From: Beijerinckiaceae bacterium
GTDB taxonomy: Bacteria > Pseudomonadota > Alphaproteobacteria > Rhizobiales > Beijerinckiaceae
Length of the DNA stretch: 64,000 bases
Reading direction: 5' to 3'
Assembly (NCBI GenBank): GCA_947452005.1
Contig: CANGBC010000003.1
Coordinates: 124,001-188,000, forward strand
The notes beneath the pieces are model-generated. The model ran no database searches. It saw only the letters and a list, made by a program, of their open reading frames with translations, and was not told the DNA's origin. The position numbers and the translations under genes are program-made. This document shows, piece by piece, positions 33,784 to 64,000 of the stretch. The first letter of the stretch is position 1, and the number at the start of each line of letters is the position of its first letter.

Positions 33784-33786
33784 GGA

Positions 33787-34683
<897 letters not shown>

Positions 34684-47895: not shown

Positions 47896-47976
47896 TACTC
47901 CCTCCCGCACATCAGGCTCTTTTTTCGGCCTGTCTTGTTTTAAAAGCATAGCACTCCCTGACAGACAGGGAAGCCT

Positions 47977-48681
47977 TCAGGTGAGCATTGCAAAGACCCG
48001 CCCCGGCGGCCGCTGCGGGCCCGTCCAGCCGATCAGGCGCAAAGCCTCGAAGATGACGGCTTGATTGCTGGTGATCATGGGCCGCCCAAGCCGGCGCTCC
48101 ACCTCATCGATAATGGCAATGCCCTGCACATTGGCACAGGAGAGGAATAGCGCGTCCGCCGCGTTGCCAGCTGCCAGCATCCGCTCCAGCCAGACGGCGG
48201 CTGGCGTCGAGCAATAGGCATCGCTGCCGCCCAAATTCCAGCCCTTCGCATAAGGCACATCCACACCACGCGCATTGAGGAAGTGGACCTCATGCTCGGC
48301 CACAGCCTCGCTATAGGGCGTCACCAGAGCAATCGACGAGGCCCGCAGCGCCTGCAAGGCAGACACAATCGCGGTTGAGGTTGTAGCGACCTGCGGCGCC
48401 CCGGCGTTGGACATGGCACCCAGAAGACGGGCCTCGCCATCCGTGCCTTCTGACATGGAATTGGCGGTGCAATGAAAGACAACCACATCGCATTTGGCAT
48501 CGACCAAGGCAGCTGTGGCGGCATCGACCGCAGGCAGAAGATCATCGATGGATTTGCGGTTTCCCCCCGTCATGCGCAAACGCGTGACATGGGGCACAAC
48601 GTCATTCGGGAAGTAGCGCACCATTTCCTGTTCGACCATGCGGTTCGAAGACGGAATGATGAGACCGACGCGGCGGACCAT
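47977..48681 (-). CDS. Asp/Glu racemase superfamily protein (maleate isomerase/arylmalonate decarboxylase-like)
   Basis: This is a 234-residue two-domain protein. The N-terminus RVGLIIPSSNRMVEQEMVRY fits maleate cis-trans isomerase and arylmalonate decarboxylase. Cysteines stand at both expected catalytic positions: VVVFHCTANSMSEG near residue 70 and ALFLSCANVQGI near 188. Having both Cys favours a racemase or cis-trans isomerase over a decarboxylase, which keeps only one. It is the first gene of the minus-strand operon that continues into Bug 5, hyuA, hyuB and the SDR gene. GGGAGGA precedes its ATG. Confidence 0.82.
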   Translation of the reverse strand: MVRRVGLIIPSSNRMVEQEMVRYFPNDVVPHVTRLRMTGGNRKSIDDLLPAVDAATAALVDAKCDVVVFHCTANSMSEGTDGEARLLGAMSNAGAPQVATTSTAIVSALQALRASSIALVTPYSEAVAEHEVHFLNARGVDVPYAKGWNLGGSDAYCSTPAAVWLERMLAAGNAADALFLSCANVQGIAIIDEVERRLGRPMITSNQAVIFEALRLIGWTGPQRPPGRVFAMLT

Positions 48682-48830
48682 GAGCTCCTCCCTGTTTCTT
48701 TTTTTGCCATGCTAGGGGTTCCCATCCCCGCCCGCAACCAAGCTCTCGTTGACGGCCAGCCTCCTGACGGACTAGCCTTGTGCCCATAACAAGCACCGGC
48801 AACAAAGACCGGACGCGCGGGAGGAGCGAT

Positions 48831-49877
48831 ATGCGCAAGGTCATGACCTTGGCCTGCATGGCAACAGCCATCTGCCTAGACGCGGCACAACCAAGCCGCG
48901 CTGCAGATCCGGTTGCGGATTTCTACACCGGCAAAACCATCACCCATATTGTCGGCGCGGGCGCGGGCGGCGCTTATGATCTCGTGTCGCGTGCCGTTGT
49001 GTCGCATATAGGGAAATATATTCCCGGCAAGCCTGCCTTCGTCGTCTCGAATATGGCGGGCGCCTCAAGTCTGACGATGATGAATTATCTGACCAATGCC
49101 GCCAAGAAAGACGGCACGGTCATGGGGATGACCAATCCGAATATTGCGCTCGAAGGCCCGCTGAAAATGCTGTCGAAAGGCGGCGGCAAGGCGATGTTTG
49201 ATGTGAACAAGTTGCAATGGATCGGCTCACCCTTGCAGCAACCCCATGTGCTGTGGGTCTGGCACACAGCGCCCGCGCAAAAGTTTGATGATTTGCGCAC
49301 CAATAAAATCATTCTGGCCTCCACCGCAGTGGGGGGCGACAATTACACTTTGCCACTCATCCTCTCCCGCCTGATGGGCGCCAAATTTGATATTGTGACC
49401 GGATATGAGGGACAAAATGATGTTTTCATCGCGACCGAACGCGGTGAAGTGCAAGGCAATAGCGCGATCCTTCCCAATCTGACATCGGCACGACCCGACT
49501 GGTTCCGCGACAAAAAGGTGCGCGTGCTGGTACAATTTGGCGTCTCGCGCATGCGGCAGCTCCCCGATGTGCCAACGGCGATTGAACTTGCCACACGCCA
49601 AGAAGACAAAGACATGCTGCGCTTTTATGCGCGCAAATTTTCCATGGCCTACCCTTTTGTGATGGCACAGGACGTGCCCAAGGACCGCGCGCAAGCCATC
49701 CGCACCGCATTTGATGCGACGATGAAAGACGAAGCCTTTCTGAAAGAGGCTGCAAGGCTTGGCCTTGATGTCGACCCGTTCTCGGGCGCAGAGATGGAAC
49801 AATTGATCACCGAACTAAACAACAGCCCAAAAGCAATCGTCGATGCGGTTGCTGACTTCATCCAGATGCCAAAATGA
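48831..49877 (+). CDS. Bug/TctC-family periplasmic binding protein 6
   Basis: This is a 348-residue exported binding protein. The ATG at 48831 follows GGGAGGAG; the track start lies upstream without a site. A signal peptide ends near AAQPSRAADPVADFYTGK. Family blocks are THIVGAGAGGAYDLVSRAVV, IPGKPAFVVSNMAGASS, AAKKDGTVMGMTNP and ATERGEVQGNSA. It is divergent from the racemase-like gene and followed after 25 bases by a flavin-dependent monooxygenase gene, so the pair is probably one operon facing the hyu operon. Confidence 0.91.
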   Translation: MRKVMTLACMATAICLDAAQPSRAADPVADFYTGKTITHIVGAGAGGAYDLVSRAVVSHIGKYIPGKPAFVVSNMAGASSLTMMNYLTNAAKKDGTVMGMTNPNIALEGPLKMLSKGGGKAMFDVNKLQWIGSPLQQPHVLWVWHTAPAQKFDDLRTNKIILASTAVGGDNYTLPLILSRLMGAKFDIVTGYEGQNDVFIATERGEVQGNSAILPNLTSARPDWFRDKKVRVLVQFGVSRMRQLPDVPTAIELATRQEDKDMLRFYARKFSMAYPFVMAQDVPKDRAQAIRTAFDATMKDEAFLKEAARLGLDVDPFSGAEMEQLITELNNSPKAIVDAVADFIQMPK

Positions 49878-49902
49878 AAATGCCCCAGGGAGCCACTGCG
49901 TC

Positions 49903-51012
49903 ATGAGCGCCAAGAACCGCGACGAAACGCGCATTTATAACAAGAACAAATTCAAGCTCGGCCTGTTTGGCATGAATTGCTCAGGTGGCTTGAGCCTCAC
50001 TCTGGCACCTGAGCGCTGGGATGCCACATGGGACAATAATGCCAAAGCCGCGCAAATGGCTGACGAGGCAGGCTTGGAGTTCCTGCTTCCTATTGGCCGC
50101 TGGCATGGCTATCAGGGCAAAAGCGACACGCAGGGCACGACGTTTGAAACGCTCACCTGGGCCTGCGGGCTGCTGGCGCTGACCAAGGAAATCACCACTT
50201 TCGGCACGCTGCATGTGGCCTTCTGCAATCCGGTTTTCTCCGCCAAACAGATGGTGACCGCTGACCACATTGGCCATGGCCGTTTTGGCCTCAACATTGT
50301 CTCTGGCTGGAACCCGGTTGAATTCGGCATGATGGGCGTCGAGCTGAAAGAGCATGATGACCGCTATGCCTATAGCCAGGAATGGATCGAGATCGTCAAA
50401 CGCATCTGGTCCGAGAGCGAGCCTTTCGATCACGATGGCCAGATGTTCAAACTGAAAGGTGTGTTGGGCAAACCCAAACCCTATTGGAACTCACGCCCGA
50501 TTCTGGTCAGCGCTGGCAATTCACCCACGGGGCGTGAATTTGCCGCTGGCAATGCTGATTGCCTGTTCACATCCATTCCAAATCTTGATGAGCTTAAGCC
50601 GAAGATTGACGGTTTCCGCGCGGCTGCCCCTCCCGGCCAGCTGCGCAATATTTTTGCCAGCTGCCATTTGATGGTGCGCAAAACCCGCAAGGAAGCGCAG
50701 GATTATCACCATTACATCGTGCACGAAAAAGGTGATTGGGAAGCCGCCGCCTATGCGGCAGACTTCCGTGGCAATCGCCTCAACACGTGGATGAAAGAAC
50801 AGACCGATCTGAAAGCGCGCCTGATTAGTGGCGCGGGCTATCCGATGGTCGGCTCTTATGATGATGCGGTTGAGACATTCCTGAAGCTCAATGAAATGGG
50901 CCTTGATGGTCTGGCTTGCGGCATGATCAATTATATTGATGACTTTCCGCATATCCGCGACGAGCTGCTGCCACGCATGGAACATGCGGGCTTGCGTGAA
51001 CCCAAGCGCTAA
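49903..51012 (+). CDS. LLM-class flavin-dependent monooxygenase
   Basis: This 369-residue luciferase-like FMNH2-dependent oxygenase starts at the ATG at 49903 behind a GGGAG site. The core TIM-barrel blocks are MNCSGGLSLTLAPERWDATW near residue 24, TADHIGHGRFGLNIVSGWNP near 126 and PILVSAGNSPTGREFAAGNA near 200. This pattern is shared by RutA, SsuD and dimethyl-sulfone-type monooxygenases. The family cleaves C-S or C-N bonds in scavenged compounds. It needs a flavin reductase, which is not adjacent. The gene is paired with Bug 6, which suggests that the imported ligand is its substrate or a precursor. Confidence 0.92.
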   Translation: MSAKNRDETRIYNKNKFKLGLFGMNCSGGLSLTLAPERWDATWDNNAKAAQMADEAGLEFLLPIGRWHGYQGKSDTQGTTFETLTWACGLLALTKEITTFGTLHVAFCNPVFSAKQMVTADHIGHGRFGLNIVSGWNPVEFGMMGVELKEHDDRYAYSQEWIEIVKRIWSESEPFDHDGQMFKLKGVLGKPKPYWNSRPILVSAGNSPTGREFAAGNADCLFTSIPNLDELKPKIDGFRAAAPPGQLRNIFASCHLMVRKTRKEAQDYHHYIVHEKGDWEAAAYAADFRGNRLNTWMKEQTDLKARLISGAGYPMVGSYDDAVETFLKLNEMGLDGLACGMINYIDDFPHIRDELLPRMEHAGLREPKR

Positions 51013-51022
51013 GGCGCTTGGG
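51001..51022 (+). terminator. Stem-loop with the LLM stop codon in its loop
   Basis: CCCAAGCGC and GCGCTTGGG form a perfect nine-base stem. The loop TAAG contains the TAA stop of the monooxygenase gene. TCTTATCT follows. It separates the convergent permease gene. Confidence 0.75.
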
Positions 51023-51029
51023 TCTTATC

Positions 51030-52769
51030 TCATACGGACAATTGGTGGCGGCGCGTCAGCATGTGGAAGGCCACGCTGACGCACGTCATCAAAGCAATCC
51101 ACAAAATGCCCATGGCCGCGAGTTCCGTCACCTGACCATTCTGCCAGAGCTCGAACAAAGTGACGGCCATCACTTCAGAGCCCGGCCCCACAAGCAAGAG
51201 CGGCAATGACACGGCCTGCACCGAGAGCAGGAAGATCAACAGCCAAGAGCTGATCAAAGTCGCCGCCAGCAACGGCATCAGAATGCGAACAAAGACTTTG
51301 AACTTTGCTGCACCTGAAATGGTGGCCGCTTCTTCCAGATCGGAATGAATCTGCATCGTGCCCGCAAAAGCATAGCGCATACCATAAGGCAGATAGCGCA
51401 CAGAAGATGCCAAAATGACCGAAAGCAATGTGCCATAGAGCGGCAGCGGCATGTTCACAAAGACATCGAGAAACGCCACGCTGAGAATGATTGCCGGAAA
51501 GACCAGCGGGACAGAGGCAATCTGGTCCAGAATCCAGGCGCCCGGCACACGACGCACGACAAGCCAGGCACAGAGTGCGGTAAATGGAACCACGAGTGTG
51601 GCCGTGGCGGCACCGAGCACCAACGTGTTGACAATCGAGTCGCGGAACGAGCCCGGCTTCAGCAGGACTTCGTAATTTTCAAGCGACAGGCGCGTGAACG
51701 ATTCCCATGAGACACCACCATAAAATGGCTGGAACGAGGTGAAGGCCAACATGGCAACAGGCACAATCGTCACGATGAGGAACAGGCCCACGAGAATAGC
51801 TGCCGCCCCATAGCGCCATCTGCCCAAATCAATCACACGCGGACGAAAACCTTTGCCCGTGATCGTCTGATAGCGTTTGGCGTGGCGTGACAATTGGTTT
51901 TGCCAAAACATCAGCCCAAGCAGAATGAGAATGAGACAGACCGAGTAAGCGCCCGCCTCACCATAATTGGCAGCACCGGCCTGTCGCGAGCTTTGATAAA
52001 TCATCGTCGTGATGACATTGACGTTGCCAGCCAAGCCCACAAGGGCGGGCACTTCGAAAGACTCAAAAGCTTTCACGAAAATCAGCAGCGTCAAGCCAGC
52101 GAGCGCTGGAAATGCCATACGCAAAGTAATGCTGGCAAAAGCGCGCACGGGTGAAGCACCCGACATCATCGCTGCCTCTTCAAATGACGCATCTGTCGAG
52201 CGCAAGACGGAGGACATCAGGAGGAAGGTGAGCGGCACAAAGCCGATGCCTTCAATCAGCATCATGCCCCACAGTGAATAGACATCGAGCACTTGCGCGT
52301 GCTGGGTGATGGATTGCAACAGGTCATTCATCGGGCCGGAGCGCCCCAGAATGAGCAGCCAGGCGACCGTATAAAGAATATGCGGCACACCCAGGGAAAT
52401 CACAGCCGCCAGAAAGGCCAGTTTGCGCCCCGGTGTATTGGTGCGCTCAACAATCAGGGCCTGCACAGTGCCTATAAAAATGGCGATGGCCGCTGACCCG
52501 CAGGCATAGATGAACGTGTTGATGAGGCTGGGCAGGAAAAACTTCCCCGCCACCAGTTGCTGATAGAAGCGCAAGGTAAAAGCACCCGGCGCGCCATCGG
52601 CCAGCGTTTCATGAAAACTTGCATTGATCAGAAACGCGGCAGGCGGCACCACGGCAAGCAACAGAACAGCAATCAGAACCAAAACGCCGGGCGATATCCG
52701 CCGGGATTCCGCCCACCTGCGTGAAACCTGAGCGCTCAGCGCCCGATCCTCTTCAACCTGCATGGTCAC
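51030..52769 (-). CDS. Fused ABC transporter permease (Fe3+/AfuB-like, two permease domains)
   Basis: This is a 579-residue inner-membrane permease with about twelve helices, formed by two BPD (MetI-type) domains in one chain. Both domains carry the EAA loop that docks the ATPase: FEEAAMMSGASPVRAFASIT near residue 195 and LEEAATISGAAKFKVFVRIL near 485. The fused form is typical of iron/AfuB and some organic-acid importers. It is the last gene of the operon with two binding proteins and an enolase-superfamily enzyme. The expected ATPase gene does not follow, so an ATPase from elsewhere must serve it. The start is GTG at 52769 or ATG at 52763. Confidence 0.91.
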   Translation of the reverse strand: MTMQVEEDRALSAQVSRRWAESRRISPGVLVLIAVLLLAVVPPAAFLINASFHETLADGAPGAFTLRFYQQLVAGKFFLPSLINTFIYACGSAAIAIFIGTVQALIVERTNTPGRKLAFLAAVISLGVPHILYTVAWLLILGRSGPMNDLLQSITQHAQVLDVYSLWGMMLIEGIGFVPLTFLLMSSVLRSTDASFEEAAMMSGASPVRAFASITLRMAFPALAGLTLLIFVKAFESFEVPALVGLAGNVNVITTMIYQSSRQAGAANYGEAGAYSVCLILILLGLMFWQNQLSRHAKRYQTITGKGFRPRVIDLGRWRYGAAAILVGLFLIVTIVPVAMLAFTSFQPFYGGVSWESFTRLSLENYEVLLKPGSFRDSIVNTLVLGAATATLVVPFTALCAWLVVRRVPGAWILDQIASVPLVFPAIILSVAFLDVFVNMPLPLYGTLLSVILASSVRYLPYGMRYAFAGTMQIHSDLEEAATISGAAKFKVFVRILMPLLAATLISSWLLIFLLSVQAVSLPLLLVGPGSEVMAVTLFELWQNGQVTELAAMGILWIALMTCVSVAFHMLTRRHQLSV

Positions 52770-52783
52770 GATCTGATTTCACC

Positions 52784-53863
52784 TTACCTGAATTGTTCTT
52801 CCCAGATCTTTTGCGAAGATCCGTAATAACGGTTGAGCTTTTCTGACCCGACAAACAATTCTTCTTTGCCGGCTTTGGCGGGAACAACAGGTGCCAATTT
52901 TTCGAGCGGCGCCACATCGGGGCGAACGGGGAAATATTCTGCCTTGGCAAAAATTTCCTGACCTTCCTTTGACAAAACAAAATCTGCCAGCAGCATGGCG
53001 GCATGGGGATGGCGCACACCTCTGGGCACGACCATCGTGCCAGCCGTTGAGGGCACCGGCTCGAGCAGAGCTGTGTTTACAGGCGCGCCCTTGGCCTTAC
53101 TAATCAGCGGGTGATGGGCAAAAATATTCAACGCGATGGGAATTTCACCCGCGATCACACGATCAACCAGCGTGCGTGCGCTACCTGAGCCGAAATTGAT
53201 GATCTTCTGCTCGGCCAGTTTGGCGAAATATTCCTTCGCCTTGTCTTCACCGCGCGACAGACGAATCGCGGTGATGAACAAAGGCGTGCCGCTGGATGTG
53301 TTGATGCGCCAAGCAATCTTGCCCTTCCATTTCGGATCGAGAAGATCGTCATAGGTTTTGGGCACCTGATCGGCAGGAACGAGCTTGGTATTATAGGCCA
53401 TACCGAAATAGCTGATCCGCGAGCTGGCCCAGTTGCCACGTGGGTCGCGATACATTTCTGGCAATTCATCGGTTGCTGGCGTGGTGAAGGGCACAGTGAG
53501 CCCACTCTCCACCGCCAATTCACCGACGCCGGTACCCTCCACCAGATCTGCGACCGTGTTTTTGGCGCGCACTTCGGCTGAAAGTTTGGCGATGATTTCT
53601 TCCGTATCCGCACGCCAATAGGTCAGCTTCACGAAGGGATATTTTTTCATGAAAGCTTCGGCCATTGGGCGCAAAGCCTGATTGACGATGGCTGCCGAAT
53701 AAAGAACGACCTGTCCTTCTTTCTTGGCACCCTCGATCAAAAGCTCCTGACGGCTGGGTGATTTGTTTGTGAGAACCGACAAATCCTGCGCTTGTGCACT
53801 GGCCATGCCAGAGAGCGCCAAAGCACCAAAGCCCAGCACACGAAGGGGGTGAAACATGCTCAT
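52784..53863 (-). CDS. ABC extracellular solute-binding protein B (Fe3+/AfuA-like)
   Basis: This 359-residue exported protein has a signal peptide ending at GMASAQAQDLSVL. Conserved text includes GAKKEGQVVLYSAAIVNQAL, MKKYPFVKLTYWRADTEEII, VPKTYDDLLDPKWKGKIAWR and NIFAHHPLISKAKGAPVNTA. Family members bind ferric iron or, in many soil bacteria, organic ligands. It is a clear paralog of the binding protein at 55005, which lies on the other side of the enolase-family gene. I take the start at 53863, behind AAGGAAG. The permease gene follows after 14 bases. Confidence 0.9.
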   Translation of the reverse strand: MSMFHPLRVLGFGALALSGMASAQAQDLSVLTNKSPSRQELLIEGAKKEGQVVLYSAAIVNQALRPMAEAFMKKYPFVKLTYWRADTEEIIAKLSAEVRAKNTVADLVEGTGVGELAVESGLTVPFTTPATDELPEMYRDPRGNWASSRISYFGMAYNTKLVPADQVPKTYDDLLDPKWKGKIAWRINTSSGTPLFITAIRLSRGEDKAKEYFAKLAEQKIINFGSGSARTLVDRVIAGEIPIALNIFAHHPLISKAKGAPVNTALLEPVPSTAGTMVVPRGVRHPHAAMLLADFVLSKEGQEIFAKAEYFPVRPDVAPLEKLAPVVPAKAGKEELFVGSEKLNRYYGSSQKIWEEQFR

Positions 53864-53892
53864 GGAGACGCTTCCTTGTTTCGACACGCCGA

Positions 53893-54963
53893 TCACGGGC
53901 CCTTCCAGCGCACGCCAGAGCCTGGGCCCTGTGTGAGATGCAGCATGCCATTCTCGATTTCGATGCCATCAAAGGGATCATCAAGCAGCCGCGCGAATTC
54001 ACCCAATTCGCAGGCATAATCGACACCCGGCAGCGAGCAGGCCAAATGCAGCGCGTGGGCGGAGAGCAGACGCGAGCCAACCGCAGCCCCCATGCGATAG
54101 GACACACCCGCCTGTTCACACAGACGCGCCGCCGCAATCGTGTTGCGCAGACCACCAAGCTTGGGGATTTTCAAGGAGACAGCGTCGACCGCGCGCTTGG
54201 TGACGAGCTGATAAATCTCGGCTAGTGAGCCCGCTGCTTCATCCGCCTCGACTTTGACCGGCACCGTGCGCGTGACCATGGCAAGGCCCTCGAAATCATC
54301 GGCTGGCACCGGCTGCTCGACGAGATCGATATTATAATCGGCCATGCGATTGATAGCGGTGATGGCATTTTTAACCGTATAGGCCTGATTGGCATCGATG
54401 GTCAGATGCACATCATCGCCCACACGCTTGCGAATGGCCGCGACACGCTGCACATCGAGATCGACCTCGCCATGCACTTTGATTTTCAAATAGCGATAGC
54501 CCTGATCGACAAGCTTTTGCGCTTGGGCGGCCATTTCATCGGGCGTCTTGATCGCCAGAATACGCAAGATCGGCACACTGGTGCGCATCTGGCCGCCAAA
54601 CAGCTGACACAGAGGCACATTCAGGCGGCGGGCGAGCATATCATGCAAAGCGCAATCAATCGCGGCTTTAGCCTGCGGCGCGCCGCGCATGGCGCGATCA
54701 AGCGCTGCGCCAATCGCCTCAATATGTCCGCCATCTTTACCCACCACATGGGGCTTGAAATAAGCGAGCTCCGCCTCGAGGGTCGCAGCAATGGCACCCA
54801 TATGCGGTGTCGCTGAGGCATAACCAAAGCCCTCAGTGCCTGCATCATCGACCAGACGCAGGATGGAGCCTTCGGTCACCGGGCTTGCGCCCAGCGCAAA
54901 TTTCCAGGTCGGGTCTTCCTTGCGCATCACGCTGGGATGCGACGAGAACTCACGGATCATCAA
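53893..54963 (-). CDS. Enolase-superfamily enzyme (mandelate racemase/muconate lactonizing type)
   Basis: This is a 356-residue enzyme of the MR/MLE family. Metal ligands are visible as Asp in HLTIDANQAYTVKNAI, Glu in NIDLVEQPVPADDFEG and Glu/Asp in VKVEADEAAGSLAEI. The KxK base is YRYLKIKVHGEVDLD and the opposite Lys is in VSLKIPKLGGLRNT, which together give the MLE subgroup pattern. Such enzymes cycloisomerise, racemise or dehydrate carboxylic acids. It lies between two paralogous binding-protein genes in a transport operon, so it probably acts on the imported acid. The exact reaction is unknown. Confidence 0.92.
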   Translation of the reverse strand: MMIREFSSHPSVMRKEDPTWKFALGASPVTEGSILRLVDDAGTEGFGYASATPHMGAIAATLEAELAYFKPHVVGKDGGHIEAIGAALDRAMRGAPQAKAAIDCALHDMLARRLNVPLCQLFGGQMRTSVPILRILAIKTPDEMAAQAQKLVDQGYRYLKIKVHGEVDLDVQRVAAIRKRVGDDVHLTIDANQAYTVKNAITAINRMADYNIDLVEQPVPADDFEGLAMVTRTVPVKVEADEAAGSLAEIYQLVTKRAVDAVSLKIPKLGGLRNTIAAARLCEQAGVSYRMGAAVGSRLLSAHALHLACSLPGVDYACELGEFARLLDDPFDGIEIENGMLHLTQGPGSGVRWKGP

Positions 54964-55004
54964 AGCACTCTCCCATTGTCGCGCGCTCTGTGGCGCGCTT
55001 TTGA

Positions 55005-56099
55005 CTATTTCTTCATGACCGTCTGGATCATCTCTTCTGAACTGACGGTATATTTATTGAGCGATTCCGGCGATACAAACTGCTCTGAAACACGCGACAA
55101 AGCATCCGTGATGGGTGCGAGATCTGCGCGGGTGGCGACATCTGTGCGGCTCGGGAAATAGCCGGCTTCTGACAAAATCTGCTGCCCCTCTTTCGAGAGA
55201 ATGTAATCAACCAGCAACATGGCAGAATGGGGATGGCGCACACCTTTGGGCACGATCATCGTCCCAATCGTGCTCGCCACAGGATCCAGCAGTATTGAGC
55301 TGACAGGCGCGCCTTTAGCAGCGCTGATTAGCGGATGATGCGCAAAAATATTCAAGGCGAGGCCAAGCTCACCTGCGATCACGCGATCAACAAGCCCACG
55401 CGCACTCGCGCCGCTGAGCGAGATGATATTTTGTTCCGCCAGACGATCGAGATAGGCCCGCGCACGCTCTTCGCCCCAAGCCATGCGCAAATTGGTGACA
55501 AACAAATCTGCACCACTCGCACTGCCGGCATGCCAAGCCATACGGCCCTTCCAGCGCGGATCGAGCAAATCCTCATAGGTCTTGGGCACATCAGATGCAG
55601 ATGTGGTCTTGGTGTTGTAACCAATCCCGAAGAAGCTGCGACGCGTGGGCGTCCACAGCATGTTGGGATCGTGATAGCGCGCCGGAATTTCTGCCATCAG
55701 CGGCGTGTCGTAGGCTTGAGCAAATCCGGCCTGGATAACGGATTCACCAACGCCCGTTCCCTCAACCACATCAGCCACCAATTTCCCCGCGCGCATCTCA
55801 GCTGCGAGCTTGGTGAAAATGCCCGATGACTCGGAGCGCCAGTAATTGACCTTGATGAAGGGATATTTTTTCATGAAGCCGTCAGAGATCGGCCGCAGAG
55901 CCTGATTGACGATCATGGCTGAGTAGAAAACGACTTCGCCTTCGGCTTTGGCACCCTCCATCAGGCGCTCCTGCCGGTCGGCAGCCTTATAGGTCAGTGG
56001 ATTCTCAACAGCCTGCGCAGACGCAGCCATCAGCATCGCCACAAGCGACGCAGAAATGGACCTGCACACAGCAAGCCTTATGGCTGCCCCGAGCACCAT
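55005..56099 (-). CDS. ABC extracellular solute-binding protein A (Fe3+/AfuA-like), first gene of operon
   Basis: This 364-residue exported protein begins at ATG 56099 with GGGGAGGA upstream and has a signal peptide ending at MAASAQAVENPL. Compared with protein B at 52784, the shared text is long and ordered: YSAMIVNQALRP, FMKKYPFIKVNYWR, VADVVEGTGVGE, YEDLLDPRWKGRMAWH, NIFAHHPLISAAKGAPV and GVRHPHSAMLL. The two are thus duplicates kept in one operon, which suggests two related ligands or one high- and one low-affinity form. The operon faces away from bicupin B at 56212. Confidence 0.91.
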   Translation of the reverse strand: MVLGAAIRLAVCRSISASLVAMLMAASAQAVENPLTYKAADRQERLMEGAKAEGEVVFYSAMIVNQALRPISDGFMKKYPFIKVNYWRSESSGIFTKLAAEMRAGKLVADVVEGTGVGESVIQAGFAQAYDTPLMAEIPARYHDPNMLWTPTRRSFFGIGYNTKTTSASDVPKTYEDLLDPRWKGRMAWHAGSASGADLFVTNLRMAWGEERARAYLDRLAEQNIISLSGASARGLVDRVIAGELGLALNIFAHHPLISAAKGAPVSSILLDPVASTIGTMIVPKGVRHPHSAMLLVDYILSKEGQQILSEAGYFPSRTDVATRADLAPITDALSRVSEQFVSPESLNKYTVSSEEMIQTVMKK

Positions 56100-56211
56100 T
56101 ATTCCTCCCCACCGGTCGCGCCCTTATTGTCGGGCGCTGTCCCGTCCGGTAATTCTAACAACAAGGCGAGCGACTTGTCACCAGCTCAGCCCATAAAACA
56201 GGGAGATTGCA

Positions 56212-57321
56212 ATGAGCGACGAAGTCGCCACTGCCCGCTACGGGATTGATGCCTATCTGGACTGGGTGCATGCCGAAGGCATGCCCGTCATCGAGGGCGA
56301 TTATGCGATCGATCTGTTTGAGGTCGAGACCGGCCCTTGGGCACGGGCGGGCTGCCACGGCGCTGCCGTCCACCTGAAGGGGCGTGGCGACTTTTGCAAC
56401 ATGTTCCTGTTCGAACTGGCACCCGGCGCCTCCAGCGCGCCGCTCCGCCACCTCTACGAAGACATTTATTACGTGATCGAGGGGCACGGCTCGACGCAGA
56501 TCGAGCTGCCCGATGGCACCAAGCGCAGCTTTGAATGGTCGCCCAAGTCCATGTTCTCGATCCCGATCAACATGCCACACCGCCATTTCAATTCAGGCGG
56601 GCGCGAGCGGGTGCGGCTGGTCTCCACCACCAATATGCCGCTGCTCATGAACACGTTCCACAATGAGCATTTCATCTTTGACAATCCCTTTGCGTTTCAA
56701 GACCGCATTGGCAAAGAGAGCTATTGGTCAGGCGAAGGTGATTTCATTCCCATCCGCCCGGGCAATCATTTGTGGGAAACCAATTTTGTCCCCGATATGG
56801 CCAGCATCAAACTGCATGATTATGCAGATCGTGGCGGCGGCTCCAGCAATATCAAATTCGTTCTGGCCGATGGCATCATGTCTGGCCATATGTCGGAAAT
56901 GCCAGCTGGTACTTACAAGAAAGCTCACAGGCACGGGCCTGGAACGCATGTGATCTGCGTAACAGGCCATGGTTACTCACTGCTCTGGTATGAGGGCGAT
57001 GCTGATTATACGCGCATTGAATGGAAACATGGTGTGGTGTTCCCGCCCTGCCAAAGCCAGATTCATCAGCATTTCAACACGAGCCATGAGCCCGCGCGCT
57101 ATCTGGCCATGGGCATCGGCAATGTGCGCTATCCCTTCACACTGCAGAAGCGCCAGACGATGATCGGCGAAAAGGGCGCCAAGCAGCGCTCATCCTTGTC
57201 GATCAAACAAGGCGGCAACCAGATCGAATTTGAAGATCAGGATCCGCGCATCCACGCCATCTGGCTGGATGAAATGAAAAAGGCAGGCATTACGCCGCTG
57301 ATGGACAAATATTTCCCTTAA
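56212..57321 (+). CDS. Large bicupin protein, paralog B
   Basis: This is a 369-residue two-cupin protein without a signal peptide. The ATG at 56212 lies in AGGGAGATTGCAATG, so GGGAG is at good spacing. First cupin: LRHLYEDIYYVIEGHGSTQI then FEWSPKSMFSIPIN. Second cupin: YKKAHRHGPGTHVICVTGHG, LLWYEGD and HQHFNTSHEPARYLAMGIGN. The tail KQGGNQIEFEDQDPRIH equals that of paralog A. It shares a leader region with the divergent binding-protein operon and a terminator with paralog C. The chemistry is unknown; metal-dependent oxygenase or isomerase roles are possible. Confidence 0.85.
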   Translation: MSDEVATARYGIDAYLDWVHAEGMPVIEGDYAIDLFEVETGPWARAGCHGAAVHLKGRGDFCNMFLFELAPGASSAPLRHLYEDIYYVIEGHGSTQIELPDGTKRSFEWSPKSMFSIPINMPHRHFNSGGRERVRLVSTTNMPLLMNTFHNEHFIFDNPFAFQDRIGKESYWSGEGDFIPIRPGNHLWETNFVPDMASIKLHDYADRGGGSSNIKFVLADGIMSGHMSEMPAGTYKKAHRHGPGTHVICVTGHGYSLLWYEGDADYTRIEWKHGVVFPPCQSQIHQHFNTSHEPARYLAMGIGNVRYPFTLQKRQTMIGEKGAKQRSSLSIKQGGNQIEFEDQDPRIHAIWLDEMKKAGITPLMDKYFP

Positions 57322-57326
57322 GAAAA

Positions 57327-57352
57327 AAGGGGCCGGATAAAACCGGCCCCTT
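57327..57352. terminator. Bidirectional terminator between bicupins B and C
   Basis: AAGGGGCCGG and CCGGCCCCTT form a perfect ten-base stem with a six-base loop, with an A run on the left and TCTTT on the right. It lies between the two convergent genes. Confidence 0.9.
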
Positions 57353-57360
57353 CTTTGTCA

Positions 57361-58590
57361 TCAGAACAGATCTTTGGGCTGATCGACGCCGGCTGTCGCC
57401 TCGTCATACCAGCGCGGATCCATGCGCGACTCGACACCATCGGCCGCCAGCGCGCGCGCGAATTCATCGCGCAAATAGGGATCTTCCGCGTGATAGGGAA
57501 TGGCGCCGCCACCCTTCTTGATGTCGATGGCACCGCGATCCGTGATCTGCTCACCCGGGCGCCCCGGCTTGCGCGAGGTCGAATTGTTCGGGCCAAACCA
57601 GGCGGACAGTCGCAGCGGGTCTTTACTCACACCAAAATGCTGGTGGAACCAGTCACCCGACATGGGAGCGGCAGAAACAATACCGCCATATTCATAATCC
57701 TGACGGCGAACCTGATCCATCTTGCCGCTTTCCCAAGGGCGCTGACCCAAAGATTCGGGCCACGTATAGGTGTAGCCCTTGCCCTTCAAGCAGAGCAGGA
57801 CTGCAGCAGACGCATGTTTATGCGCCTTGGAATAACGGCCCGTCTCATGCTGACCAACCCAGAGATAGAAGCGATTGCCCGCCATATGTGGCTCAATGCG
57901 GCGATAGCCGGGTGAGCGACGGTTATCGAGCGGCAATTCGCAATTGATGACGTCGGGCACGAGATTGGTTTTCTTCATCGCAAGCCCGCGCACCGGATCG
58001 GGCGCGATATCATCATTGGGCTTGAAATAATCGCCGTCACCCGAATAGCGATCAGTGAAGTCAAACGGGCAATCGAAAATCGCGCGACGGCTGTCGAGCA
58101 GATTGAACATATTGGGCGCACTGGTGCCGCACAAAAGAACGGCGGGCGCGTTGGTAGCATTGACGAAGCGATGATAGGCATTGATCGGGATGGAAAAGAG
58201 CGAGCCCTTCTGCCATTCGAAATGCTGCTTCTTCGGGTTGCTCTCCTGCCAGACTTCGGTCGATCCGCGCCCTTCAACAACCATGACGATCTTTTCATAC
58301 ATGTGATGATCGACATTGAGGGCCCCACCTGGCGGCACTTCCACGACATACATGCCCCACAGGCCTTCGGTGCCAAAGAGCTGGATATAGCTGCCACGGC
58401 CACCCAAGCGCTGCCATGGCTTCATCGGCAGATCGAGAACCGTGCGCACGCCAATATCGCGATAGACCGGCACGCCTTCCGATTCCATAAATTGATCATA
58501 GGGCATGGCAGGGCGTTCAAACTTGCCAAGACCCGCCATTTGAGTAGCGCTCGGCTCGTGCCAGTGCGAGCCTTTGTCATCATGGGGCAT
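57361..58590 (-). CDS. Large bicupin protein, paralog C (diverged)
   Basis: This 409-residue two-cupin protein is a distant relative of paralogs A and B. First cupin: DHHMYEKIVMVVEGRGSTEV then FEWQKGSLFSIPINAYHRFV. Second cupin: YSKAHKHASAAVLLCLKGKG and DWFHQHFGVSKDPLRLSAWF. Its tail IKKGGGAIPYHAEDPYLRDE corresponds to the KQGGxQIEYEDQDPRIH tail. It is the last gene of the operon HCHL - binding protein - permease - acyl-CoA ligase, 51 bases after the ligase. The position suggests a role in processing the imported aromatic or its product. The start is at 58590 with AGGAGAC upstream. Confidence 0.85.
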   Translation of the reverse strand: MPHDDKGSHWHEPSATQMAGLGKFERPAMPYDQFMESEGVPVYRDIGVRTVLDLPMKPWQRLGGRGSYIQLFGTEGLWGMYVVEVPPGGALNVDHHMYEKIVMVVEGRGSTEVWQESNPKKQHFEWQKGSLFSIPINAYHRFVNATNAPAVLLCGTSAPNMFNLLDSRRAIFDCPFDFTDRYSGDGDYFKPNDDIAPDPVRGLAMKKTNLVPDVINCELPLDNRRSPGYRRIEPHMAGNRFYLWVGQHETGRYSKAHKHASAAVLLCLKGKGYTYTWPESLGQRPWESGKMDQVRRQDYEYGGIVSAAPMSGDWFHQHFGVSKDPLRLSAWFGPNNSTSRKPGRPGEQITDRGAIDIKKGGGAIPYHAEDPYLRDEFARALAADGVESRMDPRWYDEATAGVDQPKDLF

Positions 58591-58641
58591 GCTTGTCTCC
58601 TGCGTTCTGATCCAAATGATATTTTTTATGTCTGTTGACGG

Positions 58642-60804
58642 CTACGCGTTGCGCACGACCAAGGCATCGAGTGCCACGCCGCCTTTTTCTGAAAGAAGAA
58701 ACGGATTGACGTCGATTTCGGCGATCACGCCGTCGGCATCCATCATCACATCTGACAAAGCGACCAGCGCCTTTGCAAGCGCCGCCTTATCGAGAACAGG
58801 GCGACCGCGATAGCCATTGGCAATGGTACCTGCTCTTGTGCGCGCAATGAGCTGCAAGGCGCCGGCCTCATCCAGTGGGCAAGCCGCCAAAGCGACATCG
58901 CGCGTCAATTCAAGATCAACACCGCCTGAGCCAAACAGAATGACCGGACCCATTTCAGGATCAAGCTTGGCCCCCAGCACGCATTCCAGCTTTCCTGAAG
59001 CCATTTCGGCAATCAGCACACCTTCAACCTGCGGCTTGTCCTTGAGCGCCGCCACATTGGCCATGATGGCGCGATAAGCATCGCGCACCGCCGCCTCATC
59101 TTTCAGATTGATCTTCACGCCGCCAATGTCCGACTTATGCGGAAGCGCAGCAGACACAATTTTGGCAACCACCGGATAGCCAATGCGCGCAGCCGCTTGC
59201 GCCGCACCATCTTCGCTTTTCACCAATTCCTCACGCGTGCCGGCCAAGCCATAGAGGCTGAGCAGGGCTTTGGACGAGACTTCGTCCAGCGTTGCAGCGC
59301 CCGATTGTTGCGCGAGCTGACGCAACAAAGCGCAACCATCATCATGAGGCGGTGAGCGCTTTGGCTCATCGGTATTGCCGAGATCAAACTGACGCGTGAT
59401 GGCCCGCATGGTGCGCAAAGCGCGATCAACTTCCTGCAGGAAGGGCAGATTGGTGAATTCAGCGCGCAGTGTGCGGCTGTAATCGCTCAAACCATAAGAA
59501 ATCATGCTGACATAAGCGATGGGTTTTTTGGCTTTGGCAGCCAGCGCATTCACCTCCCGCAAATTGCGCTCTTTGCGCTCTGTGCCAGCAGCGCGGGGCA
59601 ATTCTTCCTGCAAGAGAAGAATGTCGATTTCCGGATCGTCCAGCAAAATCTCGACGCAGCGCAGATAAGCGCCTTCTTTGGACAATGCCGCAAAGCCTGC
59701 ATCAAGCGGATTGCCAATGATCGAGCCCACCGAGAGAATCTCTTCAAGCTTCGTGCGCGTCACATCCGACAAAGGTTGGTAGGACATGCCACAAGCTTCA
59801 GCCGCGTCGAGCAACAGGCCGCGCATGCCGCCCGAGAATGTAATCGACCCCAAGCGCTTGCCTTGAGGGGCCGGCGCATGGACAAGAAATTCAACCGCCT
59901 CGACCATTTCATCGAGATTGCCGACACGAATCGCACCCGCACGGCCTGCCACCGCATCGAAGGCCTCCATGGAACCTGCCAGCGCGCCTGTGTGCGCAGC
60001 GGCTGCCGCGCGCCCTGCATCAGACGCACCAAGCTTCATGATGACAACATGCTTGCCAGCTGCACGCGCCATGCGCAGCGATTCCAAAAACGCCGCGCCA
60101 TCATGGACACTTTCCAGATAGCAGGAGATGACGCGCACATCAGAAACGCCTGCGAAATAGGCGATATAATCAGCCGTGGTGAGGCCTGTCTCATTGCCGC
60201 TGGTGATCGCCGCTTGCGTATCCACGCCGCGCTCTTCAAGCGAGCGCTTGATGGCCATCACAATGCCGCCCGATTGGCCAAGCACAGCGACAGGCCCGTG
60301 CGACAATTGCTGCTGGCGATCATCGGGCATTGAAAAGAAACGTGCCGCCGCATTGAAATTGCCAAGGCAATTGGGGCCTGACACCGCAAGGCCGGTCTCC
60401 TTAATGGTCTTGCGCAAGGCTTCCGCAAGCGCCGGACCATCAGCTTCGGTCGATTCTTCAAAGCCCGATGTCATAACAGTGGCAGAACGTGCGCCAGCTG
60501 CGGCACCATCGCGCAAGACACCGGGCACAACTTTGGCCGGTGCCAACACGACGAGATGATCCGGCTTTTCAGGCATATCGGCAAAAGTGCGATAGCAGCG
60601 TGTCTCCCAAACTGTGTCGCGCGTCGGATTGAACGGGAAAACCTGACCCTGATAGCCATAGCGCTTGAGATTGCGCCAAACGCGTTGCGGCCAATTGCCG
60701 GGCTTGTCGGTCGCGCCAATGATGACGACATTTTTGGGGTTGAGAAGCGCTTCGACTTTCCTGGCGCCCTCGCGCAGTTTTTCCTGCGTCTTGGTCTGGC
60801 TCAT
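58642..60804 (-). CDS. ADP-forming acyl-CoA ligase (acetate-CoA ligase/FerA-like)
   Basis: This 720-residue enzyme has a CoA-binding domain first (LLNPKNVVIIGATDKPGNWP near residues 20-39), then succinyl-CoA-synthetase-like domains with the active His in AAAAAHTGALAGSMEAFDAV near 265 and GPNCLGNFNAAARFFSMP near 143. The last part is an ATP-grasp domain (GYPVVAKIVSAALPHKSDIG then GVKINLKDEAAVRDA; EVDVNPF-type IAEIDVNPFLLSEKG). The nucleoside-diphosphate-forming class includes acetyl-CoA synthetases and the feruloyl-CoA synthetase FerA of Sphingobium. Association with an HCHL gene in the same operon favours a hydroxycinnamoyl-CoA synthetase role here. It starts six bases before the permease stop region. 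Confidence 0.9.
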   Translation of the reverse strand: MSQTKTQEKLREGARKVEALLNPKNVVIIGATDKPGNWPQRVWRNLKRYGYQGQVFPFNPTRDTVWETRCYRTFADMPEKPDHLVVLAPAKVVPGVLRDGAAAGARSATVMTSGFEESTEADGPALAEALRKTIKETGLAVSGPNCLGNFNAAARFFSMPDDRQQQLSHGPVAVLGQSGGIVMAIKRSLEERGVDTQAAITSGNETGLTTADYIAYFAGVSDVRVISCYLESVHDGAAFLESLRMARAAGKHVVIMKLGASDAGRAAAAAHTGALAGSMEAFDAVAGRAGAIRVGNLDEMVEAVEFLVHAPAPQGKRLGSITFSGGMRGLLLDAAEACGMSYQPLSDVTRTKLEEILSVGSIIGNPLDAGFAALSKEGAYLRCVEILLDDPEIDILLLQEELPRAAGTERKERNLREVNALAAKAKKPIAYVSMISYGLSDYSRTLRAEFTNLPFLQEVDRALRTMRAITRQFDLGNTDEPKRSPPHDDGCALLRQLAQQSGAATLDEVSSKALLSLYGLAGTREELVKSEDGAAQAAARIGYPVVAKIVSAALPHKSDIGGVKINLKDEAAVRDAYRAIMANVAALKDKPQVEGVLIAEMASGKLECVLGAKLDPEMGPVILFGSGGVDLELTRDVALAACPLDEAGALQLIARTRAGTIANGYRGRPVLDKAALAKALVALSDVMMDADGVIAEIDVNPFLLSEKGGVALDALVVRNA

Positions 60805-60810
60805 GTCACA

Positions 60811-62574
60811 TCAACCCTGTCCGTAAAGCCCGACACCGGAGCGGCGAGCGGAGAAATAAAAGATCAAAGCCACTGCCGTCATGGCGAGGCTCCAGAGCAA
60901 GCCAAGGGCTGCCAGTTCTGGCCCCTGCCCGTTGCTCCACAGATCAAACATGGCGACAGCCATGGTCTGCGATGACGGACCCGACAGAAGCACCGGAAGC
61001 GTCAAAACGCGCGTCGACAACAGAAAGATGAAGAGCCAACCCGCCACAAGCGAGGGCGCCAGCAGCGGGAAAACAATGCGGCGAAAGGCCAGAAAAGGCG
61101 ATGCGCCAGACACGGCCGCTGCTTCTTCCAGTTCACGATGCACCTGCAGCATGCCCGCATAAGAATAGCGAATGCCATAGGGCAGATAATTGATGATGAA
61201 GGCCCAGACGATGATCCAGATCGTGCCGTAAATGCCAATTGGTGTGGCCAAGAAGAATTGCATCACGCCCACGCCCAGCACAATGCCGGGAAACACCAAT
61301 GGCACCGTGCCCAATTGATCGACCATACGCGCGCCAGGAAGCTTGCGCACACTGAGCCAGGCGGCAACGGCCGTGATCACCATGACAATCGTTGCTGTCA
61401 CCACCGCCACCAGCAGCGTATTGCCAAGCAGAGACAGATAGCGATCAGACTCAAAAATGCGGATGTAATGTTTGAAGCTCAGCAGTTTGAAAGCTGACGC
61501 GCGGACCGTTTGATAAAACGGCAGAAGCGAGGCCCAGACCAGAACCAGCATCGGCAGGATCAACAGGCAGAGGAAATTCAGGATCAGAATCGCGCCACCC
61601 AGCGGGCGGTATTTGCCCAGCGGAATTCGATTGGGTCGGAAATTCTTGCCTGTGATCGTCGCAAACCGCTCTGCGTTTCGCGTCAGGCGTCCATAATACC
61701 AGAGCAGGACAGCAACCACGCACAGTAACAATGTCGACAAAGTGCTGGCCGAGCCAACATCTGGCGGCATGGTCCGGTGCATCATCTCATAAATATCGGT
61801 GGTCAGCACATGGATGCGACCCGGCAGACCAACCAGAGCTGGAACCTCAAAAGCCTCTACCGTGCGAATGAACACCAGCATGGCCAGCGCCACGACGGAT
61901 GGCAGTGACAATCGGAACGTGATCCGCCGCATCGTTTGCCATGTGCCGGCCCCGCTCATGCGCGCCGCTTCTTCCAAATCTGGGTTGAAATTGCGCAGCG
62001 TCGAGCCCAGCAGAAGGAAGACAAGCGGCGACCACAAAAGGCCCTCGATCAGGATCATGCCGCCGAGCCCGTAAACATTGATCAGAACGTCAGTCTCACC
62101 CGTCAATTCGCGATACCAAGAATTGATCGGGCCCGAGCGGGCAAGCAACAAAAGCCACGCGCTTGTATAGAGCACATAAGGCGTGCCCAGCGAGATGATG
62201 GTGGTCAGATAGGCAAGCGGCTTGAACGGCGTATCGGTGCGCTCAACGAGCCATGCATTCACGCCGCCAATCAGCAGAGCCAATAGCGCGCTGCCGAATG
62301 CAAAGGCGAAGGAATTGAAGGCGCTCATCCAGATGCCACGCTGCGACAGCACGAGGGCAAAACGATGTAGGCTGATATGCGTCTCGCCATTTTGCGTGAC
62401 GGTGAGTGCGCCTTTGATCAGGAAGACAAGCGGCGGCAGAACGAGGATGGCAAAAATGGCGGCGATGATCAGGACGAGAATGACACGCTCATCGCGTGGC
62501 AGGAACCGCGCAAACATGCCCCGCGTGTCTTGCTCGACCCCTTTCACCGCAGCTTCACTCATCGATTCACTCAC
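60811..62574 (-). CDS. Fused ABC transporter permease (Fe3+/AfuB-like, two permease domains)
   Basis: This is a 587-residue permease with two BPD domains in one chain and about twelve helices. The ATPase-docking EAA loops are LEEAARMSGAGTWQTMRRIT near residue 210 and LEEAAAVSGASPFLAFRRIV near 490. It resembles the permease at 51030 in length and organisation and is its paralog. The start is a GTG that overlaps the stop of the binding-protein gene (GTGA), so the two are coupled. No ATPase gene is in the operon as far as the window shows; it may lie beyond 64000. Confidence 0.92.
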   Translation of the reverse strand: MSESMSEAAVKGVEQDTRGMFARFLPRDERVILVLIIAAIFAILVLPPLVFLIKGALTVTQNGETHISLHRFALVLSQRGIWMSAFNSFAFAFGSALLALLIGGVNAWLVERTDTPFKPLAYLTTIISLGTPYVLYTSAWLLLLARSGPINSWYRELTGETDVLINVYGLGGMILIEGLLWSPLVFLLLGSTLRNFNPDLEEAARMSGAGTWQTMRRITFRLSLPSVVALAMLVFIRTVEAFEVPALVGLPGRIHVLTTDIYEMMHRTMPPDVGSASTLSTLLLCVVAVLLWYYGRLTRNAERFATITGKNFRPNRIPLGKYRPLGGAILILNFLCLLILPMLVLVWASLLPFYQTVRASAFKLLSFKHYIRIFESDRYLSLLGNTLLVAVVTATIVMVITAVAAWLSVRKLPGARMVDQLGTVPLVFPGIVLGVGVMQFFLATPIGIYGTIWIIVWAFIINYLPYGIRYSYAGMLQVHRELEEAAAVSGASPFLAFRRIVFPLLAPSLVAGWLFIFLLSTRVLTLPVLLSGPSSQTMAVAMFDLWSNGQGPELAALGLLWSLAMTAVALIFYFSARRSGVGLYGQG

Positions 62575-63608
62575 CTGAACAGGCTTTTGAAGACTTCAGC
62601 CCAGCGCGGCATTTCCTTGTCGATCTCTTCTGGCGTTTTGTAGATAGCCTTGAACTTTTCGCCATCAGGACGCAACGCGAGGTCATTGGGCGGCACATTG
62701 GGGTCAACCGGAAGATAATCGGCATCGCGATAGATCTTCTGCCCGTCTTCGGAGAGCAAGAACTCCAGCAACAAGCGCCCGGCATTGGGATGGGGCGCAT
62801 CCTTCGTCACTGATATCACCGAGAGTACGGCGAGCGCCGGGTTCATCGGGATCCAGTCAACAGGGGCACCTTTGGCCGCACTGATCACCGCGTGATTGTT
62901 GAAAATATTGAGCGCGATCGCATATTCGCCAGCAATGACCTGATCAAGCACCTGGCGTGCAGCGACTGCGAGGCCAGAGGGATTCTGCTTCGCCAATTCG
63001 CGCAGATAGGCCATTCCTTTTTCTTCGCCCATGGATGCCAGCACAATGCCAACAAAGCCCGGACCTGCCGAGGACGACGCCGTCGAGTTCCAGGCGATCT
63101 TGCCTTTGTATTTGGGGTCCAGCAGATCCTGGAAAGTTTTGGGTTCCGTTCCCTTTTTGATGAGCTCGGTGTTGAAGCCGGGCGTCAGCACATAGAGATT
63201 GGTCGCGACCCAATAGCCTTCGGGATCGATATAGGATTTTGGCAAGCGCTTGGCGCTTTCAGGAATCCATTGCGCAGGGATCTTTTCGCTCTTTAGCGCA
63301 GCGGTTGCGCCTGTGCCATCGAAGACATCAACCTGCATTTTGCCCGCGCGCGCTTCATTGAGCACGCGCAGCGCCACTTCGTTTGAATTGGCGCGCACAT
63401 AATTGACCTTGATGCCGTAGCGCTTTTCAAAAGCCTGAGCAGCGGGCCGCGCAAATTGATCGATGATCTGTGTTGTGTACCACGTCACCTGCCCCTCTTT
63501 TTTCGCAGCATCAATCAACGCCTGATCGAGTGCGGCGGCAGGATGCACAAAAGCCGCCATGGTTGCGGCCAGTATCAAAAAACGGCGATGAAAAGCACGA
63601 GGTGCCAC
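62571..63608 (-). CDS. ABC extracellular solute-binding protein C (Fe3+/AfuA-like)
   Basis: This is a 345-residue exported protein. The start is GTG at 63608 with GGAGAAAG upstream, and a signal peptide ends near FVHPAAALDQAL. Conserved text is AKKEGQVTWYTTQIIDQFAR, FEKRYGIKVNYVRANSNEV, KTFQDLLDPKYKGKIAWNST and NIFNNHAVISAAKGAPVDWI. It is related to the two binding proteins at 52784 and 55005 but more distant. It follows the HCHL gene (with a stem-loop between) and precedes its permease, so a hydroxycinnamate or similar aromatic acid is a reasonable ligand guess. Confidence 0.9.
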   Translation of the reverse strand: MAPRAFHRRFLILAATMAAFVHPAAALDQALIDAAKKEGQVTWYTTQIIDQFARPAAQAFEKRYGIKVNYVRANSNEVALRVLNEARAGKMQVDVFDGTGATAALKSEKIPAQWIPESAKRLPKSYIDPEGYWVATNLYVLTPGFNTELIKKGTEPKTFQDLLDPKYKGKIAWNSTASSSAGPGFVGIVLASMGEEKGMAYLRELAKQNPSGLAVAARQVLDQVIAGEYAIALNIFNNHAVISAAKGAPVDWIPMNPALAVLSVISVTKDAPHPNAGRLLLEFLLSEDGQKIYRDADYLPVDPNVPPNDLALRPDGEKFKAIYKTPEEIDKEMPRWAEVFKSLFR

Positions 63609-63638
63609 GATCTTTCTCCAAGCAACGGAGAGATTAAA

Positions 63639-63665
63639 GCATGGGCCGGAAAAACCGGCCCATGC
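63639..63665 (-). terminator. Stem-loop between the HCHL gene and the binding-protein gene
   Basis: GCATGGGCCGG and CCGGCCCATGC form a perfect 11-base stem with an AAAAA loop (TTTTT on the coding strand). Only TTTAAT follows, so partial termination or mRNA stabilisation is more likely than a full stop. Confidence 0.7.
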
Positions 63666-63681
63666 GATTCATGTCAGATGA

Positions 63682-64000
63682 TCAGCGCTTAAATTCGCCC
63701 AGACCTGGCTTGAACACCTTGTCGTCGAGGAACATCTTCATCGCCTTCTGGCGACCACCCTCTGGATCGACATGCTTCAGCGCGTCGCTCTTGGCGTTGA
63801 GATAATCCATCGCCTGATCCTTGGTCATGCGGCGAACCATGCGCACGCATTCCTTGGTGTATTTCACCGCGGCCGGGCTCTTGGCTTCGAGCTTGCGGGC
63901 AAGCTCCATCACTTCGGCGCGCAGATTTTCGACCGGCACAGATTTGTTGACGAATTTCATCGCCGCCGCTTCTTTGCCCGAGAAGCGATCACCCGTGACG
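63682..64000 (-). CDS. p-Hydroxycinnamoyl-CoA hydratase/lyase (crotonase superfamily), C-terminal part
   Basis: The gene runs off the right edge; the frame is open to base 64000, so the Met at 63960 is internal. About 105 C-terminal residues are visible. TGDRFSGKEAAAMKFVNKSV near the edge is the crotonase C-terminal turn, and HVDPEGGRQKAMKMFLDDKV then FKPGLGEFKR matches the distinctive tail of HCHL enzymes (DPE-GR-QGLKQFLDEK-KPGL-YKR). HCHL hydrates and cleaves feruloyl-, caffeoyl- or coumaroyl-CoA to the aldehyde and acetyl-CoA. It heads the visible part of the operon with binding protein, permease, acyl-CoA ligase and bicupin C. Confidence 0.87.
   Translation of the reverse strand, partial: VTGDRFSGKEAAAMKFVNKSVPVENLRAEVMELARKLEAKSPAAVKYTKECVRMVRRMTKDQAMDYLNAKSDALKHVDPEGGRQKAMKMFLDDKVFKPGLGEFKR

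Follow-up and report, generated by a model that had tools for sequence, protein, structure and literature searches.

A Relocated Four-Gene Unit, Probably for Import and Shortening of a 4-Hydroxycinnamate-like Acid, beside a Bicupin Gene in an Uncultured Beijerinckiaceae Lineage

A 64,000-nucleotide stretch of a Beijerinckiaceae metagenome-assembled genome (MAG), hereafter the window (G000:C3:124001-188000, that is, genome G000, contig C3), ends in a run of five minus-strand open reading frames. In order of transcription, these encode an HCHL-family lyase, a periplasmic binding protein (SBP1), a fused ABC permease (PERM1), an acyl-CoA ligase (LIG), and a protein with two cupin domains (bicupin C). 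The first four genes probably form a unit that imports and shortens a 4-hydroxycinnamate-like acid, bicupin C being adjacent through the relocation of a DNA block and not as an intrinsic step. On this reading, an uncultured freshwater lineage would share a conserved catabolic unit of the hydroxycinnamate type that brings its own ABC importer, one not of the CouP kind.

The MAG G000 comprises 2.03 Mb and is 58% complete; contig C3 continues beyond the window. Many MAGs of close relatives (Beijerinckiaceae/Rhizobiales) apparently originate from lakes or ponds, judging from isolate names, and the source organism belongs to an uncultured freshwater lineage that probably lives on plant-derived aromatics. 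The five genes are separated by 73, -4, 6, and 51 bp, which confirms the order and the small gaps or overlaps given by a first-pass annotation of the window. The features concerned are as follows.

63682 to 64000, minus strand: 3' end of the HCHL-family gene, which in full extends, counted in window positions, to about 64509 (G000:C3:188509; L008:3682-4509)
62571 to 63608, minus strand: SBP1, periplasmic binding protein placed by family models in the PhnS/AfuA-like SBP_bac_6/SBP_bac_8 group; adjoins HCHL in relatives
60811 to 62574, minus strand: PERM1, fused two-domain ABC permease with a PhnU2-like architecture according to domain models; kept in the unit
58642 to 60804, minus strand: LIG, predicted NDP-forming acyl-CoA ligase (CoA_binding_2, Succ_CoA_lig, ATP-grasp_5; His271), assigned from domains, alignment, and tree
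58602 to 58648, no strand: junction of the relocated block and the bicupin cluster, placed by homology to genome G031 (HCHL block 58649-64590, bicupin cluster 49915-58601)
57361 to 58590, minus strand: bicupin C, two cupin domains, with His257/His259/His316 in the C-terminal one; part of the adjacent cluster, not of the HCHL unit

Conservation and Relocation of the Unit

HCHL-clade genes were compared at 40 loci from relatives, where neighbour counts are lower bounds wherever contigs end. A PERM1-like gene is present at 30 of these loci and an SBP1-like gene at 26; the usual order is HCHL-SBP1-PERM1-LIG, and many loci carry SBP1, PERM1, and LIG in this order. By this recurrent arrangement, HCHL, SBP1, PERM1, and LIG are one conserved unit across the genus. 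Many relatives (L141, L149, L157, L177, and others) have the unit flanked by a thiamine-diphosphate (ThDP) enzyme gene, the nearest curated families of which are a ThDP-requiring protein and benzoylformate decarboxylase (below cut-off), and by a DHA2-family MFS gene. The flanking ThDP enzyme and efflux MFS protein might act on or export an aromatic aldehyde or acid.

In G031, 6.6 kb separate the ThDP and MFS genes, and the HCHL block occupies this interval. In G000, the same two genes (C4:107817-109577 and C4:110157-111542) have 580 bp between them; the segment corresponding to the HCHL block (9917-15988 of L141) is missing from this site, with 26 bp in its place. The block is found instead at window positions 58649-64590 (about 5.9 kb), 83% identical to the G031/L141 block; about 80 bp preceding the HCHL ATG moved with it. 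On the other side of the junction, the bicupin cluster is homologous to that of G031 up to position 58601, a point 11 bp ahead of the bicupin C start codon. According to these alignments, the block of about 5.9 kb was relocated, in an ancestor of the window lineage, from the ThDP-MFS site to its place next to bicupin C. It is a clean case, in which the seeming operon membership of a bicupin is explained by the move of a four-gene block, with the vacated site and the newly formed junction both readable.

As G000 is only 58% complete, the junction could in principle be an assembly or binning artefact, but this is extremely improbable. Genome G038, from another sample, has the same arrangement at 89% nucleotide identity across the region, so the junction is not an assembly error of a single MAG. 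Genome G012 shares the junction as well, and the empty site is common to all three genomes, the ThDP and MFS genes being adjacent in G038 and G012 too.

The Lyase and Its Partner Ligase

Read beyond position 64000, the HCHL gene comprises 275 codons, from an ATG at L008:4509, preceded by AGGGAGGA, to a stop at window position 63682; an alternative GTG start would give L008:3682-4530. The product passes the NCBIfam HCHL equivalog PRK09120, scoring 359 bits where the cut-off is 276; the next-best family reaches 166 bits. Its best PDB match is 2j5i, the HCHL (Ech/FerB) of P. fluorescens, with an E-value of 6e-83; HCHL structures score 258-282 bits and the next match 141. Within the shared crotonase fold family, the lyase is about 49% identical to the P. 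fluorescens enzyme and retains Glu143, Tyr75, Gly120, and Trp146 (P. fluorescens numbering). Glu143 occurs in every lyase sequence tabulated, and Tyr75 throughout the window clade. In published structure work on the P. fluorescens enzyme, Glu143 is reportedly essential and Ser123 dispensable. The lyase is, on these family matches, a member of the HCHL family, in keeping with the HCHL-type tail recognized earlier. An ordinary enoyl-CoA hydratase is ruled out by the equivalog score, the PDB match, and the kept catalytic residues. Unlike the P. fluorescens enzyme, the lyase has Gln for Met70, Thr for Ser123, and Asn for Tyr239, and it falls in a separate sister clade. HCHL-family lyases are expanded in the genus, with up to 9 per genome, in two parallel lineages co-diverging with NDP-forming ligases.

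The ligase combines the domains CoA_binding_2 (PF13380), Succ_CoA_lig (PF13607), and ATP-grasp_5 (PF13549) with the catalytic-His block AAAHTGALAG (His271), bearing out the CoA-binding, His, and ATP-grasp blocks first noticed in it. From this architecture, LIG is predicted to be ADP-forming. The three Pfam domains, the catalytic His, and an HCHL-family partner gene are shared with FerA of Sphingobium SYK-6 and with FCS1, an NDP-forming feruloyl-CoA synthetase demonstrated biochemically (PMC6388921); the architecture common to LIG and FCS1 counts in favour of import and shortening of a 4-hydroxycinnamate-like acid. Nevertheless, LIG stands in a separate clade from the partner ligases of canonical HCHLs, being about 30% identical to them, whereas those are 43-58% or more identical to one another. 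As stand-ins for FerA of SYK-6, this comparison used the ligases of Sagittula, Neorhizobium, Polymorphobacter, and L193-L195 (same genus).

The lyase and ligase trees split alike, with canonical HCHLs and FerA-like ligases on one side and window-type lyases and window-type ligases on the other, which indicates that the two proteins co-diverged as a pair. This co-divergence supports a joint pathway, yet it places the pair in an uncharacterised sister lineage; as the lyase and the ligase each lie outside the clades of known HCHL/FerA-type pairs, the substrate is a presumptive one. Some genomes with the window-type pair also carry HCHL/ligase pairs of a more canonical kind (L193-L195).

Proposed Pathway and Its Substrate

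HCHL, SBP1, PERM1, and LIG would be transcribed as one unit. SBP1 and PERM1 would take up an aromatic alkenoic acid, the likeliest being a 4-hydroxycinnamate or a close analogue, with the help of a shared ATPase encoded elsewhere (the candidate being an AfuC/PhnT2-like gene on contig C4). LIG would turn the acid into its CoA thioester, using ATP and CoA, and the lyase would hydrate the double bond and then split the product into acetyl-CoA and an aromatic aldehyde. Once oxidised, the aldehyde would be processed by PobA and channelled to ring cleavage by PcaGH. The classical fcs-ech-vdh operon, as found on the Azospirillum B510 plasmid, likewise combines a CoA ligase, an HCHL, and a transporter gene, but with an AMP-forming ligase, an aldehyde dehydrogenase (ALDH), and an MFS carrier, whereas the window unit has a predicted NDP-forming ligase, a putative ABC importer, and no ALDH.

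The nearest named families of SBP1 are PhnS/PhnS2 and a pyridoxal-phosphate-binding protein, all curated models being far below cut-off; its earlier description as AfuA-type holds for the SBP_bac_6/8 group and is loose beyond that. CouPSTU of Rhodopseudomonas palustris is a known hydroxycinnamate ABC importer (PMC3610893). The window unit resembles it as an alphaproteobacterial ABC set for which hydroxycinnamate uptake is proposed, and differs in its PhnS-like SBP_bac_6/8 binding protein, its single fused permease, and a unit without an ATPase gene. Only one AfuC/PhnT2-like ATPase was found in the partial genome G000, about 163.5 kb into C4, in an operon (G000:C4 163.0-164.7 kb, L201) composed of a fused permease, the ATPase, and another bicupin. 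It may serve several orphan binding protein/permease sets.

Genes for the downstream route lie on the same contig. The pobA gene, for 4-hydroxybenzoate 3-hydroxylase, is at G000:C3:69117-70283 (618 bits, cut-off 538.7), and pcaG and pcaH are inside the window:

33160 to 34623, minus strand: protocatechuate 3,4-dioxygenase, pcaG (33160-33783) and pcaH (33787-34623), both over the cut-offs of their family models

A PobA and PcaGH route to protocatechuate cleavage is plausible. The pcaGH genes are accompanied by a phenol-hydroxylase-like FAD monooxygenase gene (34684-36285) and, upstream, by a TctC-type binding protein gene.

Several observations weigh against this pathway. The HCHL operon contains no ALDH gene, a search of the MAG found none either, and G038, a complete close relative, has one full-length ALDH only, which is SSADH-like, so aldehyde oxidation is the weak link of the proposed route. 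An ATPase gene is absent from the HCHL minus-strand run, which supplies a binding protein and a permease only. Binding of aromatic acids by SBP1 is putative. The lyase has Asn at residue 239 and, at residue 70, Gln where the P. fluorescens enzyme has Met, and its clade is sister to that of the characterised HCHLs (tree support: canonical 0.956, window-type 1.0). The first-pass annotation had suggested looking for an ATPase and an aldehyde dehydrogenase past 64000; neither adjoins the operon there, the next genes running divergently on the plus strand (a 228-aa protein of unknown function, a GntR regulator, an FAD monooxygenase, an amidase, and a NitT-type ABC set). An ALDH annotated as SSADH does, however, lie between two HCHL genes in Neorhizobium. 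G038 is otherwise rich in aromatic catabolism genes, despite its single full-length ALDH.

The lyase/ligase pair may instead act on an acid other than 4-hydroxycinnamate, imported by the PhnS-like ABC set, a possibility we take seriously while judging it rather unlikely. It would fit the separate, co-diverged clades of window-type lyases and ligases, the coexistence of more canonical pairs in some of the same genomes, and the neighbours of the unit in relatives, which are the ThDP enzyme and MFS genes, not vdh or vanAB. It would also fit the fixation of Gln70 and Asn/Asp239 in the window clade, compared with Met70 in most canonical HCHLs; residue 239 is reported to belong to the phenol-binding site of the P. 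fluorescens enzyme, where Tyr239 and Tyr75 hold the 4-hydroxyl. However, Tyr75, Gly120, Glu143, and Trp146 are retained, PobA and PcaGH are present, and position 239 is occupied by V, T, S, or M in further annotated HCHLs, one of which is part of an AMP-ligase/HCHL/ALDH operon. Asn239 alone, therefore, does not exclude hydroxycinnamates, the residue not being a strict mark of the family; its use as proof of a non-HCHL function is weakened by the same variation. A 4-hydroxycinnamate-like acid is still the probable substrate. The ferA/ferB-like pathway with its own ABC importer, as originally suggested, is partly supported: a mode of action like that of FerA/FerB stands, with its lyase, its NDP-forming ligase, a conserved binding protein and permease, and pobA/pcaGH, but the lyase and the ligase fall outside the canonical-pair clades.

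Bicupin C and the Bicupin Family

Beyond the junction, bicupin C belongs with a cluster made up of the following features.

56212 to 57321, plus strand: bicupin A, convergent neighbour of bicupin C, 29% identical to it, conserved in comparison with relatives
55005 to 56099, minus strand: SBP2, a binding-protein paralogue in the bicupin cluster (family models)
53893 to 54963, minus strand: enolase-superfamily protein (MR_MLE), best NCBIfam match the muconate/chloromuconate cycloisomerase family, below cut-off
52784 to 53896, minus strand: SBP3, second binding protein of the cluster (domain models)
51030 to 52769, minus strand: PERM2, fused ABC permease of the cluster (domain models)
49843 to 51012, plus strand: luciferase-like FMN monooxygenase (LLM), SfnG-like below cut-off, at the end of the cluster kept in relatives

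Bicupin C orthologues in G031, G026, and G043 are 88-90% identical and keep bicupin A and the SBP2-enolase-SBP3-PERM2-LLM genes, with other genes upstream. Comparison of these loci indicates that bicupin C is a recent neighbour of the unit, belonging to a separate bicupin A/SBP/enolase/permease cluster.

The first-pass annotation had proposed bicupin C as an added pathway step. A functional role for it in the hydroxycinnamate pathway, whether in aldehyde, side-chain, or ring processing, now appears improbable. Bicupin C and the ligase gene do share a strand, with a 51 bp gap in which no minus-strand terminator-like site was found, and bicupin C may now be co-transcribed with the HCHL block through read-through. 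Selection could have favoured the move of the block next to a bicupin; bicupins occur near aromatic genes, for example, those for Rieske oxygenases; and, in a second genome (L159), an HCHL-clade gene and a different ligase gene (34% identical) have a relative of bicupin C and an enolase gene as neighbours. However, a bicupin is within reach at only 3 of the 40 HCHL-clade loci, one being that of G038 with its near-identical genes, and the other 37 have none. In the 88-90% identical orthologous clusters, neither HCHL nor ligase is directly beside bicupin C, and bicupin density near HCHL (5 in 0.91 Mb) is not clearly above a background of roughly at least 3 per Mb. Bicupin C is not considered intrinsic to the pathway, because it adjoins the block solely in the window lineage, after the relocation.

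His257, His259, and His316 are invariant across 29 bicupin sequences, in a motif without Glu, which suggests that the C-terminal cupin domain of bicupin C holds a putative 3-His metal site. The gentisate and 5-aminosalicylate bicupin dioxygenases similarly have two cupin domains, with a 3-His (HxH...H) site in one, but bicupin C gives just a trace match to 5-aminosalicylate 1,2-dioxygenase (NF049978; 19 bits, cut-off 650). Searched by sequence, the PDB yielded no significant match to bicupin C. Its AlphaFold model is confident (pLDDT 86), and the nearest solved folds are remote, namely oxalate decarboxylase (TM 0.44, 12% identity) and otherwise distant bicupins and seed storage proteins, so the function of bicupin C cannot be read from its fold.

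The bicupin family is very greatly expanded in a lineage-specific manner, with up to at least 12 members per genome, among the matches listed, in the genus (G000 and G001-G050). Outside it, 150 relatives yielded one match, and bicupins are nearly absent from the other genera of the family that were searched. A few copies are carried by rhizobial plasmids, one beside genes for a Rieske oxygenase, a class II aldolase, and an EutA-like protein. Literature searches on bicupins with hydroxycinnamates or in Beijerinckiaceae returned nothing relevant. From context, an oxygenase role of bicupins in aromatic breakdown is a guess.

A bolder combination of these elements would take the lyase and ligase as an uncharacterised, co-diverged pair, sister to HCHL/FerA and acting on another aromatic substrate; uptake of such acids in the genus as proceeding by PhnS-like ABC modules, some of it coupled to 3-His bicupins catalysing a new aromatic step; and the block move as an operon being put together by selection; we give it little credence, about as little as bicupin C in the hydroxycinnamate pathway. 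The co-diverged HCHL/NDP-ligase sister clade and the bicupin expansion nevertheless constitute testable sources of new aromatic enzymes.

TctC-type binding protein genes are within reach of bicupins at 42 of 79 loci and are numerous in this region as well (window positions 36300-37421 and 46876-49877; L008:14391-15365). EutA-like (ethanolamine ammonia-lyase reactivase-like) genes are found beside bicupins and near HCHL blocks (L202, L188, L120; L150, L153, L155, L167).

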